From Alphaproteobacteria bacterium (GTDB lineage: Bacteria > Pseudomonadota > Alphaproteobacteria > Micropepsales > Micropepsaceae), in NCBI GenBank assembly GCA_021324545.1, contig JAJPIX010000011.1, positions 1 to 64,000 of the forward strand: 64,000 bases of DNA, written 5' to 3'. Of this stretch, positions 469 through 10,537 are shown piece after piece. The notes under the pieces are model-generated. The model was not told where the DNA came from and made no database searches. It worked only from the letters and a program-made list of their open reading frames with translations. The position numbers and the translations under genes are program-made. Within the stretch, counting starts at the first letter, position 1. Every line of letters starts with the position of its first letter.

Positions 469-1176
469 ATGTTCGTGCACACGGTATTCGACGTCATCGC
501 CTGGCTGGCCGGCGGCCTTGCCGCATGGTGGGTTTCGCGGCGCAAGTGGCTCTCGGACCGCGTCGAGACGAGAAGCGTTCGCACACATCCCGGCTATTTT
601 ATTGCGCTGGCCCTTGGCGCGATGGGCGGAGCCCTGCTGTTCGGCAGTCTGAACATGGGGCTGGCGGGGCGATGGGAGCTCGGTCATTCGATCGCAGGCG
701 CGATTGCCGGCGGAGCCGCCGCAGTGGAGCTGTTCAAGCTGGCGCGCGGCATAAGCGGGTCCACCGGCGGACAGTTTGTGGCGCCGCTTGCTGCCGGAAT
801 AGCAGTCGGGAGGTTCGGCTGCTTCTTCGCCGGGTTGCCCGATTACACCTACGGCACGCCGACCACCCTGCCCTGGGGCGTGGACTTTGGCGACGGAATC
901 CCCCGCCATCCCGTGCAGCTCTATGAGTCGGCCGCGATGGCCGGGTTTCTGGTGCTCTATCTGTGGGAAATTTCGCGCGGCTCGGAGCTTTTCCTGCGCC
1001 AGGGCTTCTACCTTTTTGTGGGTTGGTATGCGGTCCAGCGCTTCGCCTGGGAGTTCCTGAAGCCTTACCCGGACGTCCTTGGACCCTTCAACATCTTCCA
1101 CATCGTTTGCGCCTGCCTCTTTGTCTATTCGCTTTTCATGATGAGCAGACCCCATGAGCTTCGCGCGGCCATCTAA
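469..1176 (+). CDS. Lgt-like (prolipoprotein diacylglyceryl transferase family) membrane protein, probably non-canonical
   Basis: A 235-residue polytopic membrane protein with the Lgt family layout: a GRFGC-type signature mid-protein, then PRHPVQLYES and a C-terminal RFAWEFLKPYPD element, which correspond to the conserved blocks of phosphatidylglycerol:prolipoprotein diacylglyceryl transferase. Key positions differ. The usual GRxGNFxNGE reads GRFGCFFAGL, so Asn and Glu are lost, and the SFHGG histidine region reads SIAGA. It is also a little short for Lgt. I infer a paralog acting on a lipid or lipid-linked substrate rather than the housekeeping enzyme. The frame is open from a GTG at 409 with another ATG at 448; I chose the ATG at 469, preceded by GGGG at a normal distance. 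Its 3' end overlaps the radical SAM gene by 23 bases, suggesting coupled expression. Confidence 0.75.
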   Translation: MFVHTVFDVIAWLAGGLAAWWVSRRKWLSDRVETRSVRTHPGYFIALALGAMGGALLFGSLNMGLAGRWELGHSIAGAIAGGAAAVELFKLARGISGSTGGQFVAPLAAGIAVGRFGCFFAGLPDYTYGTPTTLPWGVDFGDGIPRHPVQLYESAAMAGFLVLYLWEISRGSELFLRQGFYLFVGWYAVQRFAWEFLKPYPDVLGPFNIFHIVCACLFVYSLFMMSRPHELRAAI

Positions 1177-2569
1177 ATCCTACGCCTTCTACGGACAGAC
1201 AACGTCGCTGTGCGAGCAGTGCCTGAAGCTGGTGCCGGCGAAAATCATCATCGAAGGCGATGACGTGTTCTTCCTGAAGCGCTGCGCCGAACACGGCGCG
1301 CAAAAGACACTGGTCGCCACCGACGCCGCGTATTTCCGAAGCTGCAAGGAGTTCATCAAGCCCGGCGACCTGCCGCTGAAACACGAGAGCCGGACGCACT
1401 ATGGCTGTCCCTACGATTGCGGGCTTTGCCCCGACCACGAGCAGCATTCCTGCCTGGCGCTGATCGAGGTGAACGATGAATGCAATCTCTCCTGCCCGGT
1501 GTGTTTTGCCGATTCTTCCCCGCAGCGGACCATGAACCGGTCGCTGGCCGAAATCGACCGGATGCTGGAAACGCTCGTGGCAAGCGAGGGCTTTCCCGAT
1601 CTGGTCCAGATATCCGGCGGGGAGCCCACCATTCACCCGCAGATTCTGGACATTCTCAAGCTGGCCAAGACCAAGCCCATCCGCCACATCATGCTCAACA
1701 CCAACGGCATCCGCATCGCCACCGACAGGGCCTTCGTGGAGGCGCTGGCGGCGCTGAAGCCAGGCTTCGAGGTCTATCTGCAATTCGATTCGCTCAAGCG
1801 TAGCGCGCTGGAAAGCCTGCGCGGCGCCGACCTGCGGAAGGTGCGCGATCAGGCGCTGGCCAACCTGGAAGCGGCGCAGATCTCCACCACGCTCGTTTGC
1901 GTGGTGAAAAAGGGTGTCAACGACGAAGAGATCGGCGACATCGTGCGCCACGCGCTGTCTTATGCCTGCGTGCGCGGCATCACTTTCCAGCCGGTGCAGG
2001 ATGCGGGCCGTAACATCAATTTCGACAAAAATCGCGACCGCATGCTGCTCACGGACATTCGCCGCGCCATCGCGGCGCAGGCAGGCGAGGTTTTCGGGTT
2101 GGACGACATCATTCCGCTGCCCTGCAACCCCGACGGCATCGGCATCGCCTACGGGTTGCGCAACGGCCAGCAGGTCACGCCGATCACCCGCATGATCCCC
2201 AGGGACGAGCTTCTGAAAGTTGCGCCAAACACCATCTCGTTCGAGAAATATCCGGCACTCAGGGACCGGCTGTTCGACCTCTTGTCGCTCGCCTCGTCGG
2301 GCGAACGGACGAAGACTGCTCTGGGCGACCTTCTATGCTGCCTGCCGCAAGTGGAGGTTCCGGACGATCTCGGTTACGACAGGGTGTTCCGCATCGTCAT
2401 CGTCCAGTTTCTGGACCGCTACAATTTCTGCGTCGGGGCGGTGAAGCGTTCCTGCATCCATTTCGTGACGCCGGATGCCAAAATCATCCCGTTCGACACG
2501 TACAATCTTTTCTACCGCAATAATCTTGTTGAACGATTCCAGAGGAAGCTGCGCCGTGTCCCAGCCTGA
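1154..2569 (+). CDS. Radical SAM protein of the MJ0619/Tes-like family
   Basis: A 471-residue cysteine-rich radical SAM enzyme. In order: an N-terminal CxxC...CxxH element (Cys20, Cys23, Cys44, His47), a CPYDCGLCPDHEQHSC block (Cys85, 89, 92, 100), the SAM-cluster motif CNLSCPVC (Cys110, 114, 117), a GGEP-type SAM contact (SGGEPT), and a C-terminal element with NFCVGAVKRSC. This layout matches the family of archaeal MJ0619 and tetraether lipid synthase Tes, which uses extra iron-sulfur clusters and a rubredoxin-like iron to couple or alkylate unactivated carbons; many members are annotated as a pterin dimethyltransferase. Family membership is read from the motifs. A lipid substrate is inferred from the overlapping Lgt-like gene upstream and the membrane protein downstream. 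Confidence 0.82.
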   Translation: MSFARPSKSYAFYGQTTSLCEQCLKLVPAKIIIEGDDVFFLKRCAEHGAQKTLVATDAAYFRSCKEFIKPGDLPLKHESRTHYGCPYDCGLCPDHEQHSCLALIEVNDECNLSCPVCFADSSPQRTMNRSLAEIDRMLETLVASEGFPDLVQISGGEPTIHPQILDILKLAKTKPIRHIMLNTNGIRIATDRAFVEALAALKPGFEVYLQFDSLKRSALESLRGADLRKVRDQALANLEAAQISTTLVCVVKKGVNDEEIGDIVRHALSYACVRGITFQPVQDAGRNINFDKNRDRMLLTDIRRAIAAQAGEVFGLDDIIPLPCNPDGIGIAYGLRNGQQVTPITRMIPRDELLKVAPNTISFEKYPALRDRLFDLLSLASSGERTKTALGDLLCCLPQVEVPDDLGYDRVFRIVIVQFLDRYNFCVGAVKRSCIHFVTPDAKIIPFDTYNLFYRNNLVERFQRKLRRVPA

Positions 2570-2840
2570 AGCATCCGGCCCATTGCCGACGAAGCCCAAA
2601 CCGCCGCATACCGTTTTCGGAATTGCCCTGATGGTGTTGGGCCTTCTGATTCTGGTTCCATCCGGCCTGTGCAGCGGCGTGTTCGGGGCCGGCGCGCTGG
2701 TAAGCGCGATTTTCAATCCGACGGAAGCGGGCGACGCCGCGGGAACCCTGATGATGGTCCTGATCGTTGGCGGAATCCCGATGGCTATCGGGGCCGGCCT
2801 GACATATCTCGGCAACGCGTTGCGCAAGAACCCGGATTAA
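2556..2840 (+). CDS. Small two-helix membrane protein, unknown function
   Basis: A 94-residue protein with a Pro-rich N-terminal tail (about 20 residues) and two hydrophobic segments, near residues 20-45 and 60-80, separated by a short loop containing NPTEAGD. I do not recognise the family. A GTG start at 2556 is chosen because AGAGGAAG lies 7 bases upstream and the GTG overlaps the radical SAM stop by 14 bases, a typical coupled start. The ATG further upstream at about 2475 lies deep inside the radical SAM gene. It probably works with the two upstream proteins at the inner membrane. Confidence 0.65.
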   Translation: MSQPEASGPLPTKPKPPHTVFGIALMVLGLLILVPSGLCSGVFGAGALVSAIFNPTEAGDAAGTLMMVLIVGGIPMAIGAGLTYLGNALRKNPD

Positions 2841-7484: not shown

Positions 7485-8060
7485 ATGACCAGAACATCTC
7501 GCCTGCTGGCGGGCGCAGCCCTGGCGGCCGGCGCAGTGGCGCTAATTGCCCCGGCCCAAGCGAGCGTGAAAGTGGGCGTCCTGAGCTGTCACGTTTCCGG
7601 AGGCGTGGGGTTCATTTTTGGCTCATCCAAGGACCTCAGGTGCAATTTCACGCCCAACCATGGCTTTCCGGAGCTCTATGCGGGAACGGTCCAGAAATAC
7701 GGCCTGGACATCGGCTACACCGCCGGCGGGCGGATCATATGGGACGTTTTCGCCCCCACGGCGGGCTTCCGGCGCGGCGCCCTGGACGGAAGCTATGCGG
7801 GGGCCACGGCGGGCGCGACGGTGGGCGTGGGAGCGGGCGCGAATGTCCTGGTGGGGGGCTCGGACCGTTCCTTCACGCTTCAGCCGGTGAGCATCGAGGG
7901 TAACACGGGCCTAAACATCGCAGCCGGAATCGGCGCGATTGACCTGCACTATCTCCATCCCGTTGCCGCCCCCGAGGAGGTAGGTCCGCCACCCGAGGAA
8001 GGCCCTGAGGGACCGCCTCCAAGCGACCAGGGGCCGCAGCCGGATGAACCCCCGGGCTGA
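7485..8060 (+). CDS. DUF992 family secreted protein with acidic Pro-rich tail
   Basis: A 191-residue protein with a clear Sec signal peptide (hydrophobic core LLAGAALAAGAVALIAP, cleavage likely after AQA near residue 26) followed by a DUF992 domain. Visible family features are VGVLSCHVSGG, SSKDLRC with the paired Cys, and a Gly/Ala-rich GATAGATVGVGAGANVLVGG stretch. Residues after about 160 form a Pro/Glu/Gly-rich tail absent from the second copy downstream. The function of DUF992 is unknown; it is common in alphaproteobacteria. GAAGGAG is placed well for the ATG at 7485. Confidence 0.85.
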   Translation: MTRTSRLLAGAALAAGAVALIAPAQASVKVGVLSCHVSGGVGFIFGSSKDLRCNFTPNHGFPELYAGTVQKYGLDIGYTAGGRIIWDVFAPTAGFRRGALDGSYAGATAGATVGVGAGANVLVGGSDRSFTLQPVSIEGNTGLNIAAGIGAIDLHYLHPVAAPEEVGPPPEEGPEGPPPSDQGPQPDEPPG

Positions 8061-8257: not shown

Positions 8258-8737
8258 ATGAAAAAGCAGTTTCGTATTGCCGCGGGCGCGGCCTTGGCCG
8301 CAGCGGCATTGGCGCTGACGGCGCCTGCCAATGCCGCAAGCATCAAGGTTGGGACACTTACCTGCCATGTGGCCAGCGGCTGGGGTTTCGTGTTCGGGTC
8401 TTCCAAAGATCTGCGCTGCAACTTCCATCCCAATAACGGCGTGAGCGAGCACTACATCGGAACCGTGTCGAAGTTCGGCGTGGACATCGGTTACACCGAC
8501 AGCTCCGTGATCGTGTGGGCCGTGTTTGCCCCCACGAGCGGCGTGAAGCGCGGCGCGCTGGAAGGCGGCTATGCGGGCGCGACAGCCGGCGCGACTGTGG
8601 GCGTTGGCGCGGGCGCCAATGTGCTGGTCGGCGGATTCGACCGTTCGATCACGTTGCAGCCGATCAGCGTTGAAGGCTCCACGGGCCTGAATGTTGCCGC
8701 GGGTATCGGTGCGATCAACCTGAAATACGTGCCGTAA
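8258..8737 (+). CDS. DUF992 family secreted protein, tandem paralog
   Basis: A 159-residue paralog of the preceding gene, with a signal peptide (AAGAALAAAALALTAPANA) and nearly the same DUF992 domain: VGTLTCHVASGWGF, SSKDLRCNF, GATAGATVGVGAGANVLVGG. It lacks the Pro-rich tail. The start has AAAGGGAG upstream and is followed by a rho-independent terminator about 50 bases beyond the stop. The 197-base spacer between the two copies suggests they may also be transcribed separately. Confidence 0.87.
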   Translation: MKKQFRIAAGAALAAAALALTAPANAASIKVGTLTCHVASGWGFVFGSSKDLRCNFHPNNGVSEHYIGTVSKFGVDIGYTDSSVIVWAVFAPTSGVKRGALEGGYAGATAGATVGVGAGANVLVGGFDRSITLQPISVEGSTGLNVAAGIGAINLKYVP

Positions 8738-8836: not shown

Positions 8837-10537
8837 TCAGATGAAGGTTGAGCTCTGAAGACCGGCAAGAGAGGCCGGATGAGTGAGCTGGATGACGAAA
8901 TCGGCATCGGCCTGGTAGCCGGGCTGTCCGTTTGCGTCCACCACGAGGAAGGTGTGACCGGCCAGGGTCCCGGCATCTGGTGTAAACATGACAGCATGGT
9001 GGCCCTGGAGCTGGCTCCCGCCGACAGCAGAGGCAAGATCGCTGTCAAAAGTTGCTCTGGAAAGCGAACCAGACGTGATCTGCGCGTCCACCTGCGTGAC
9101 GCTCTCGGGCAGATCGATCCTGTCGCCATGGCCGGGATCGAAACCGACGATTGTGTCAAATGCCTTTCCCGTGGAATCGGACACGTGGAAGAAAACGAAA
9201 CGGTCGGCGCCCGAACCGCCGTTCAGGATATCCGCGCCGGGACCGCCTTTCAGGAGATCATTGCCCCCATTGCCGGAAAGCCGGTCGGCACCGCCCTGCC
9301 CCGCCAGCACGTCGCGGCGGCTGCCGCCGGTCAGCAGGTCGTTGCCGGCACCGCCCCAGAGGCGGTCGCCATCGCCATTGGCGAGGATGCTGTCGTTGCC
9401 CGATCCGCCCAGAGCGGTGTCGATCTGCGTGCCAAAGGCGATGGCGATGTTGTGCGTCAGGCCGGCACAGCTGCTGTAGGCACCCGCATTGAGATTCACA
9501 TGGGAGGAGGTCGAGTAGCCCGAAAGATCCAGGCAGTTATTCGTGCCGCGGTCGTAGAGCGTGACCACCGGATACTGATTGATGTTGAAATCGAAGAACT
9601 CTTCCGTAGCGTCGGAAATATTGCAGTGGAAGCCGAATGTCTGACCGCCGGAAAGCGCGGTGTGATCGGGCGCGCCGTAAAGCCGTTGCGCGGCCAGGAT
9701 ATCGAGCGGCATGGGCGTTTCGGGAACGAAATTGCCCCAGCTCGCATGCACGGGATATTGCGAGGAATATTTCGCCGTCTGATCGGGATCGATATAGGAC
9801 ATGATCGACCAGATCCGGGAATCGTAAGCGCTGTACTGCTGCGTCAACGGCCTGACATTGCCGTTGTAGGGGCCGGCATGGCCGAGCCCCAGCGCATGGC
9901 CTTCCTCATGGACCAGTGTGCCCCAGGGGTAGCCACCATAGGAAACGAAAGAGGCGCCGATGGGCCCGAAGCCGGGAACGCTGGTATCGATTGAGATATG
10001 CGCCACGAGATTACGCGGGATGGACGACGATCCTGCCACCGCCGTGGACGATGTGGAGGCGTATTCGTAGGCGCTGCCATCATTGCCGCGATCGAAGATG
10101 AGTTGGGCCCGGGCGCGATCAGCGGTGAGCCGGAACTGGATATTCGCCTCGTCGGACCAGAGCTTGAGGCCCGCGGCCAACGCGGACTCTTCCGCTGCCG
10201 ACCAATGCGCTGCAGGATTGAAGAAATAGCGCACGGTCCCGCCCGCGTCGCCAGCCGCGCCGCCGCCCCATTTGCCGAGCGAAGGAGCTGCCGTGTACAT
10301 GGCCGGGTTCTGTCCATTCCATGTATCGAAGCTGATATTCGCCACCAATCCGTTTGCGGTCACCCCCGATATGAACGTGACTTCGTCGTCCATGGACGGC
10401 CCCGAGGAAACCTGCGAGCCAGGGCTCATGAGGCCAACAGACAACGGCGCCGCACCGTGGATCGGCATCTGCGCCGGGGAAAGATCCGTCAGATCCCGAT
10501 TGAGAGAACGGGCCCAGCCCGGCACATCGCTACGCAT
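8837..10537 (-). CDS. Serralysin-like M10 zinc metalloprotease with RTX repeats
   Basis: A 566-residue secreted metalloprotease. The catalytic zinc motif HEEGHALGLGH is at residues 210-220 (His210, Glu211, His214, His220) and the Met-turn SIMSY at 244-248, as in metzincins of the serralysin type. Residues about 376-446 carry Ca-binding RTX repeats (GGSGNDSIL, GGAGNDLLTGG, GNGGNDLLKGG). Residues 447-566 form a C-terminal module shared with two other proteins in this window. There is no Sec signal, which fits type I secretion; no ABC/MFP transporter is visible nearby. AAAGGTG precedes the ATG at 10537. Confidence 0.88.
   Translation of the reverse strand: MRSDVPGWARSLNRDLTDLSPAQMPIHGAAPLSVGLMSPGSQVSSGPSMDDEVTFISGVTANGLVANISFDTWNGQNPAMYTAAPSLGKWGGGAAGDAGGTVRYFFNPAAHWSAAEESALAAGLKLWSDEANIQFRLTADRARAQLIFDRGNDGSAYEYASTSSTAVAGSSSIPRNLVAHISIDTSVPGFGPIGASFVSYGGYPWGTLVHEEGHALGLGHAGPYNGNVRPLTQQYSAYDSRIWSIMSYIDPDQTAKYSSQYPVHASWGNFVPETPMPLDILAAQRLYGAPDHTALSGGQTFGFHCNISDATEEFFDFNINQYPVVTLYDRGTNNCLDLSGYSTSSHVNLNAGAYSSCAGLTHNIAIAFGTQIDTALGGSGNDSILANGDGDRLWGGAGNDLLTGGSRRDVLAGQGGADRLSGNGGNDLLKGGPGADILNGGSGADRFVFFHVSDSTGKAFDTIVGFDPGHGDRIDLPESVTQVDAQITSGSLSRATFDSDLASAVGGSQLQGHHAVMFTPDAGTLAGHTFLVVDANGQPGYQADADFVIQLTHPASLAGLQSSTFI

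Follow-up and report, generated by a model that had tools for sequence, protein, structure and literature searches.

Gene content of the locus

The stretch of DNA analysed here (the window) is the first 64,000 nucleotides of contig JAJPIX010000011.1, from an alphaproteobacterium of the Micropepsaceae. Three overlapping reading frames lie on its plus strand at 469-2840, just as an earlier reading of the sequence alone had claimed. The first (469..1176, with its ATG at 469) encodes an Lgt-like integral membrane protein of 235 residues, which scores 82.4 bits against PF01790 (cut-off 24.9; E 4e-23). The second (1154..2569) overlaps it by 23 bases and encodes a 471-residue radical SAM protein resembling Tes/GDGT-MAS, with 76.2 bits to PF04055 and 64.5 bits to the N-terminal ribbon model PF23545. 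The third (2556..2840), an open reading frame that begins with GTG and overlaps the radical SAM stop by 14 bases, encodes a small two-helix membrane protein (94 residues, two hydrophobic segments). Because the housekeeping lgt of the same genome sits at a separate site (C39, 252 bits), the Lgt-like gene is a paralogue. Both the relation of the radical SAM protein to Tes (phmmer E 3e-65 to 7TOL) and the pairing of the two genes, which are adjacent across phyla, are far beyond chance.

Farther along the window, two clearly related, secreted-looking proteins are encoded in tandem (7485-8060 and 8258-8737), each with a signal peptide and an alanine- and glycine-rich middle. A large protein on the minus strand (8837-10537) combines a metalloprotease-like HEEGHALGLGH motif with calcium-binding glycine-rich repeats.

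The radical SAM protein

The closest solved relative of the radical SAM protein is GDGT-MAS of M. jannaschii (MJ0619, 7TOL), at about 32% identity, and a profile of the cassette family covers residues 21-504 of 7TOL (E 1e-92). An AF2 model (pLDDT 75.9, pTM 0.79, with residues 356-405 at low confidence) superposes on 7TOL with Z 43.0 over 394 aligned residues at 2.4 A; the next unrelated entry, SuiB, reaches only Z 19. As modelled, the protein has the GDGT-MAS fold across all domains. The sequence-only reading had placed it in the Tes/MJ0619 family, and membership of that superfamily stands: its closest solved structure is a lipid enzyme, and not a member of some unrelated radical SAM clade with a non-lipid substrate. 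Identity as Tes itself does not stand. The NCBIfam equivalog for Tes (NF045702) gives 278.2 bits, below its cut-off of 450, and the best-scoring NCBIfam model, TrsS (NF045646, aligned over 15-453), gives 309.4 bits, below 490, so that both names were rejected. (TrsS, for which we found no assigned function, differs in that the cassette enzyme is without selenocysteine.) The Tes cut-off was passed in none of 249 Pseudomonadota genomes, while the controls M. jannaschii, S. acidocaldarius and M. acetivorans pass it.

Residues were mapped through an alignment of 103 sequences in which the MJ0619 numbering agrees with PMC9433317. On the plus strand, the rubredoxin-like iron motif C20xxC23...C44xxH47 (1211..1294; C9, C12, C33 and H36 of MJ0619) is conserved in all clades. 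The N-terminal auxiliary [4Fe-4S] motif C85x3C89x2C92 with H95 (1406..1438; C73, C77 and C80 of MJ0619) is invariant in the main clade, and the radical SAM motif C110x3C114x2C117 (1481..1504) is invariant. The SAM-loop residues Q268 and R275 (MJ0619 numbering) are also kept. What differs from GDGT-MAS is the C-terminal auxiliary region (2123..2497), which in the window has C324, C395-C396, S433-C434 and D448. Throughout the main clade Cys470 of MJ0619 is replaced by Asp or Glu (Asp448 in the window) and Cys455 by Ser or Thr, and the window protein further has Phe for Tyr459 and Val for Met439, two residues that can be replaced in MJ0619 with activity retained (PMC9433317). Of the cysteine layout described from sequence alone, then, the N-terminal, middle and radical SAM motifs and C434 are present, but the "C-terminal Cys pair" is not diagnostic, C395-C396 being an extra pair that MJ0619 lacks. 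The C-terminal cysteines may be cluster ligands, in which case the metal site would be an altered one. In GDGT-MAS the radical intermediate is held on the C-terminal cluster through a carbon-sulfur bond (PMC9433317), and this region is therefore the place where the chemistry could differ.

The main clade, with members from Pseudomonadota, Bacillota, Bacteroidota and Melainabacteria, groups together in a tree (SH-aLRT 96) in which MJ0619 is the sole Tes and no TrsS sequence is included. The positions of L005, MJ0619 and the M. vanbaalenii sequence in it are unsafe owing to long branches. Homologues from actinobacteria and Halobacteria (L102, L104, L105, L100, L101) are without the N-terminal auxiliary cysteines and keep C455, C456 and C470.

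The Lgt-like protein

The AF2 model of the Lgt-like protein (pLDDT 87.7) matches the Lgt structure 5AZB with Z 12.2 over 208 residues (next best 5.6), and a profile search of the PDB with the family returns 5AZB only (E 1e-11). By PF01790 and by its modelled fold the protein is a member of the Lgt superfamily. Identity as the housekeeping enzyme was rejected, as the true lgt is separate in the genome and the scores fall far short of the equivalog cut-offs: 25 bits against 118.9 for TIGR00544, 37.6 against 334 for NF000778 and 31.8 against 428 for NF000775.

Several residues of E. coli Lgt are kept (R143, R239, Y235, G142, G145, G104 and E243). In Lgt, R143 and R239 position the phosphate of phosphatidylglycerol; both are invariant in the main clade and in actinobacteria, and in L005 R143 is Lys. 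By comparison with Lgt, the cassette paralogue has Lys for R246 in the main clade, has lost H103 (to Ala, Val, Glu, Leu or Met), and has Cys for N146 in all 96 sequences. His103 and Asn146 are both needed in E. coli Lgt (PMC13251419). The same substitution at 146 is on record in MSMEG_5408 and the Lgt of L. interrogans, some function is reported to persist in Lgt proteins with Cys146, and other Lgt proteins lack His103 (PMC13251419); transferase activity of the Lgt-like protein is on these grounds possible.

Linkage and distribution

The radical SAM gene is rare in random samples drawn from the class and from the phylum, which gave 3 further genomes out of 289 and 11 out of 398. For all 14 of these matches, the Lgt-like gene lies beside the radical SAM gene or in the same short gene run. 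A reciprocal search found the radical SAM gene in 8 of 249 genomes of the phylum and the Lgt-like gene in the identical 8. A scan of about 85,000 species, each represented by a single genome, turned up at least 563 radical SAM relatives, and the Lgt-like gene is close by on the same strand in 77 of the best 80 loci among these, mostly from Pseudomonadota, Bacillota and Bacteroidota. Of the three misses, L094 is real, having the small protein but no Lgt-like gene within 5 kb; the other two fall at contig ends. These loci should not be read as independent, since about 25 of those used come from Bradyrhizobium or near relatives. Homologues as distant as 30% identity (L005) still have both genes together, as do Mycobacterium plasmids and Nonomuraea. 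The two proteins have diverged in step (r 0.84 over 66 loci), a pattern that shared ancestry alone could also bring about.

The pairing proposed from the single locus thus holds generally, and homologues usually found without an Lgt-like gene were not what the searches returned. The notion of a cassette confined to an odd alphaproteobacterium gives way to one widespread in several phyla, many aerobes included. Its distribution is patchy, since the radical SAM gene is missing in three genomes of the window's own genus (G004, G140, G239). Copies in two metagenome bins labelled Planctomycetota (L063, L076) are nested within alphaproteobacterial sequences, as from recent transfer or wrong binning.

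A sister type of the radical SAM gene has a SAM methyltransferase gene as partner and no Lgt-like gene, namely in L099 (a M. vanbaalenii plasmid), L100 (Salinirubellus) and L101 (Haloarcula); at the two halobacterial loci, DUF547 and peroxiredoxin genes adjoin. Clustering of the neighbours in 75 loci found no other recurrent gene except a generic ABC ATPase, and no ether-lipid or fatty-acid pathway is therefore attached to the cassette.

Small membrane proteins with a positioned cysteine

Directly downstream of the radical SAM gene, 88 of 95 loci encode small multi-helix proteins, between one and three per locus, and every one of these proteins contains cysteine. The usual spacing is a four-base stop-start overlap, and the genes are often tandem copies. 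In L005, L046, L079 and mycobacteria the small proteins sit between the two enzymes; a recognised small protein is missing in four loci. None of the methyltransferase-partnered relatives in Halobacteria and M. vanbaalenii has such a protein adjoining. Pfam assigns no reliable family, and DUF5316, holin and similar identities were rejected as below cut-off.

The small proteins are unrelated between phyla, and what they have in common is the position of the cysteine. Those of Pseudomonadota have two helices and the motif [P/S/G]GxC, those of Bacillota three helices and NAACFG, those of Bacteroidota FSTCV and those of mycobacteria GxCTGLNP. In the window the lipobox-like residue is Cys39 (...LILVPSGL-C; codon at 2670..2672, plus strand), which is predicted to lie where helix 1 reaches the outer face. 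In most small proteins of the Bradyrhizobium loci L006-L010 and L022-L055, a second conserved cysteine (RSGCLTALM) is found at the inner end of that helix. In 125 of 129 small proteins, an uncharged hydrophobic stretch of 14-28 residues, mostly 19-20, leads up to a cysteine; in 110 of the 125, the charged residue ahead of the stretch is K or R. By the positive-inside rule, this basic flank predicts the cysteine at the outer face. A cysteine so placed was found in 118 of 124 cassette proteins, as against 14 of 190 control segments (ninety-residue pieces of other membrane proteins encoded at these loci) and 4 of 15 small open reading frames used as further controls.

Lgt finds lipobox cysteines at the outer membrane face. 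The small proteins share with lipoprotein precursors the basic flank, the hydrophobic stretch and then a cysteine predicted at the outer face. They do not share the canonical lipobox [LV][ASTVI][GAS]C or a soluble domain behind it: Leu is the commonest residue at -1, the window has VPSGLC, and the chain stays hydrophobic. The nearest approach to a canonical precursor is in L016, where a Sel1-repeat protein (L016:683-1501) replaces the small proteins between the Lgt-like and radical SAM genes, with a lipoprotein-signal-like N-terminal helix ending GGTGC. A two-helix membrane protein in the cassette was correctly recognised from the sequence alone; treated there as an accessory, it has a near-invariant, lipobox-like cysteine and is a possible substrate.

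A proposed lipidation cassette

Our preferred interpretation, to which we assign a probability of about 0.4, is that these genes would form a self-contained cassette for lipidation of a small membrane protein, combined with radical chemistry on the lipid chain. The small protein would enter the membrane as a hairpin of helices, or as three helices in Bacillota, and present its conserved cysteine on the outer side. The Lgt-like enzyme would move a diacylglyceryl group from phosphatidylglycerol to this cysteine, as a thioether. The usual signal-peptide cleavage is absent from the scheme, because the chain continues as a membrane helix. With SAM, the radical SAM enzyme would take a hydrogen off a saturated acyl chain. 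A new bond would be made on that chain, by tail-to-tail coupling or some other alkylation, with help from the putatively remodelled metal site of the C-terminal region; this step could come before or after the transfer to protein. A membrane protein would thereby gain an unusual lipid anchor, one that might span the bilayer. The most specific form of the proposal, in which the Tes-like enzyme joins a tail of the lipidated hairpin protein to another tail and so staples the protein by a spanning lipid in at least five bacterial phyla, is unlikely to hold in every part.

The co-occurrence of the enzymes in the same 8 of 249 genomes and their adjacency in 77 of the best 80 loci, kept in 30%-identity homologues and on mycobacterial plasmids, argue for lipidation, as do the positioned cysteine and its K/R flank, the placement of the small proteins after or between the enzymes, and their absence beside methyltransferase-paired relatives. 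The Sel1 protein of L016, with its signal-like helix, fills the same slot. The retained Lgt residues (R143, R239, Y235, G142, G145), the full-length structural match to a lipid-binding enzyme and the lack of any other cassette-specific gene recurring nearby are in keeping with it as well. Against it stand the loss of His103 and the change of Asn146 to Cys in all the Lgt-like sequences, the non-canonical box with its hydrophobic continuation, L094 without an Lgt-like gene and the four loci without a recognised small protein. Topology is the main difficulty, because the radical SAM protein should be cytosolic and the cysteine should face outward. Chemistry at the tail ends is nevertheless conceivable, as chain ends meet in mid-bilayer; alternatively, the lipid could be altered before transfer.

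Three other interpretations draw on much of the same evidence. The idea of the sequence-only reading, in which a Tes-like enzyme couples the acyl chains of free phospholipids or alkylates them to give a membrane-spanning or branched lipid, is a serious possibility that we nonetheless doubt. The Lgt-like protein would there make or present a phosphatidylglycerol-derived lipid, and the small proteins would be scaffolds or lipid chaperones. In its favour, GDGT-MAS, the closest characterised homologue, couples lipid tails and binds phospholipids of E. coli (PMC9433317), branched tetraethers have been suggested as products of bacterial Tes homologues (PMC8941075), and the arginines that bind phosphatidylglycerol are kept. 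Against it, the idea gives no reason for a cysteine placed alike in small proteins that are otherwise unrelated, and Cys470 of Tes is Asp or Glu in the main clade. The literature searched for Bradyrhizobium reports no such lipids, a weak absence.

It is improbable that the small protein is instead a RiPP-like peptide substrate of the radical SAM enzyme, with a bond made at the cysteine or at a helix residue and the Lgt-like protein serving as membrane chaperone or second tailoring enzyme. Small genes directly after the enzyme, often in tandem, do resemble precursor genes, and they encode a conserved cysteine; yet the fold is that of GDGT-MAS and not of a peptide maturase (Z 43 vs 19 for SuiB), and the predicted place of the cysteine is across the membrane from the enzyme. 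That no member in any phylum has His103 or Asn146 would suit an Lgt-like protein that is no transferase, one that takes up phosphatidylglycerol and hands a lipid tail on to the radical SAM enzyme, the cysteine of the small protein being structural or metal-binding in a complex. The retention of R143, R239, Y235 and the glycines of the active site across phyla, together with the reported Lgt with Cys146 and some remaining function (PMC13251419), makes such a carrier very improbable.

Relation to known systems and significance

Bacterial members of the sequence network around GDGT-MAS had been noted earlier (PMC9433317), and bacterial Tes homologues have been proposed as makers of branched tetraethers (PMC8941075, PMC11868695). 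The cassette itself was not described in the openly searchable literature on Tes with Lgt and on Lgt paralogues. Neither the Lgt-like partner nor the small cysteine proteins turned up there, and these appear to be what is new; they also set the cassette apart from GDGT-MAS. Mss, a bacterial membrane-spanning lipid synthase that couples two fatty acids (PMC11868695), can be likened to the cassette by description only.

Branched tetraethers are the basis of climate proxies, and bacterial relatives of Tes are counted as their possible makers (PMC8941075, PMC11868695). At about 32% identity to MJ0619 and E 3e-65, the cassette family is likely to clear the sequence thresholds used in tetraether surveys. 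It should be told apart in them, because it forms a separate clade, its gene context differs, and its C-terminal metal site is putatively altered. The cassette is present in culturable bacteria, e.g. Sphingomonas, Caulobacter and Paenibacillus. Its gene set suggests an undescribed route of putting lipid on a membrane protein and perhaps of remodelling that lipid. Should the small proteins prove to be substrates, the Lgt fold would have a second use, and radical SAM lipid chemistry would be linked to protein lipidation for the first time.
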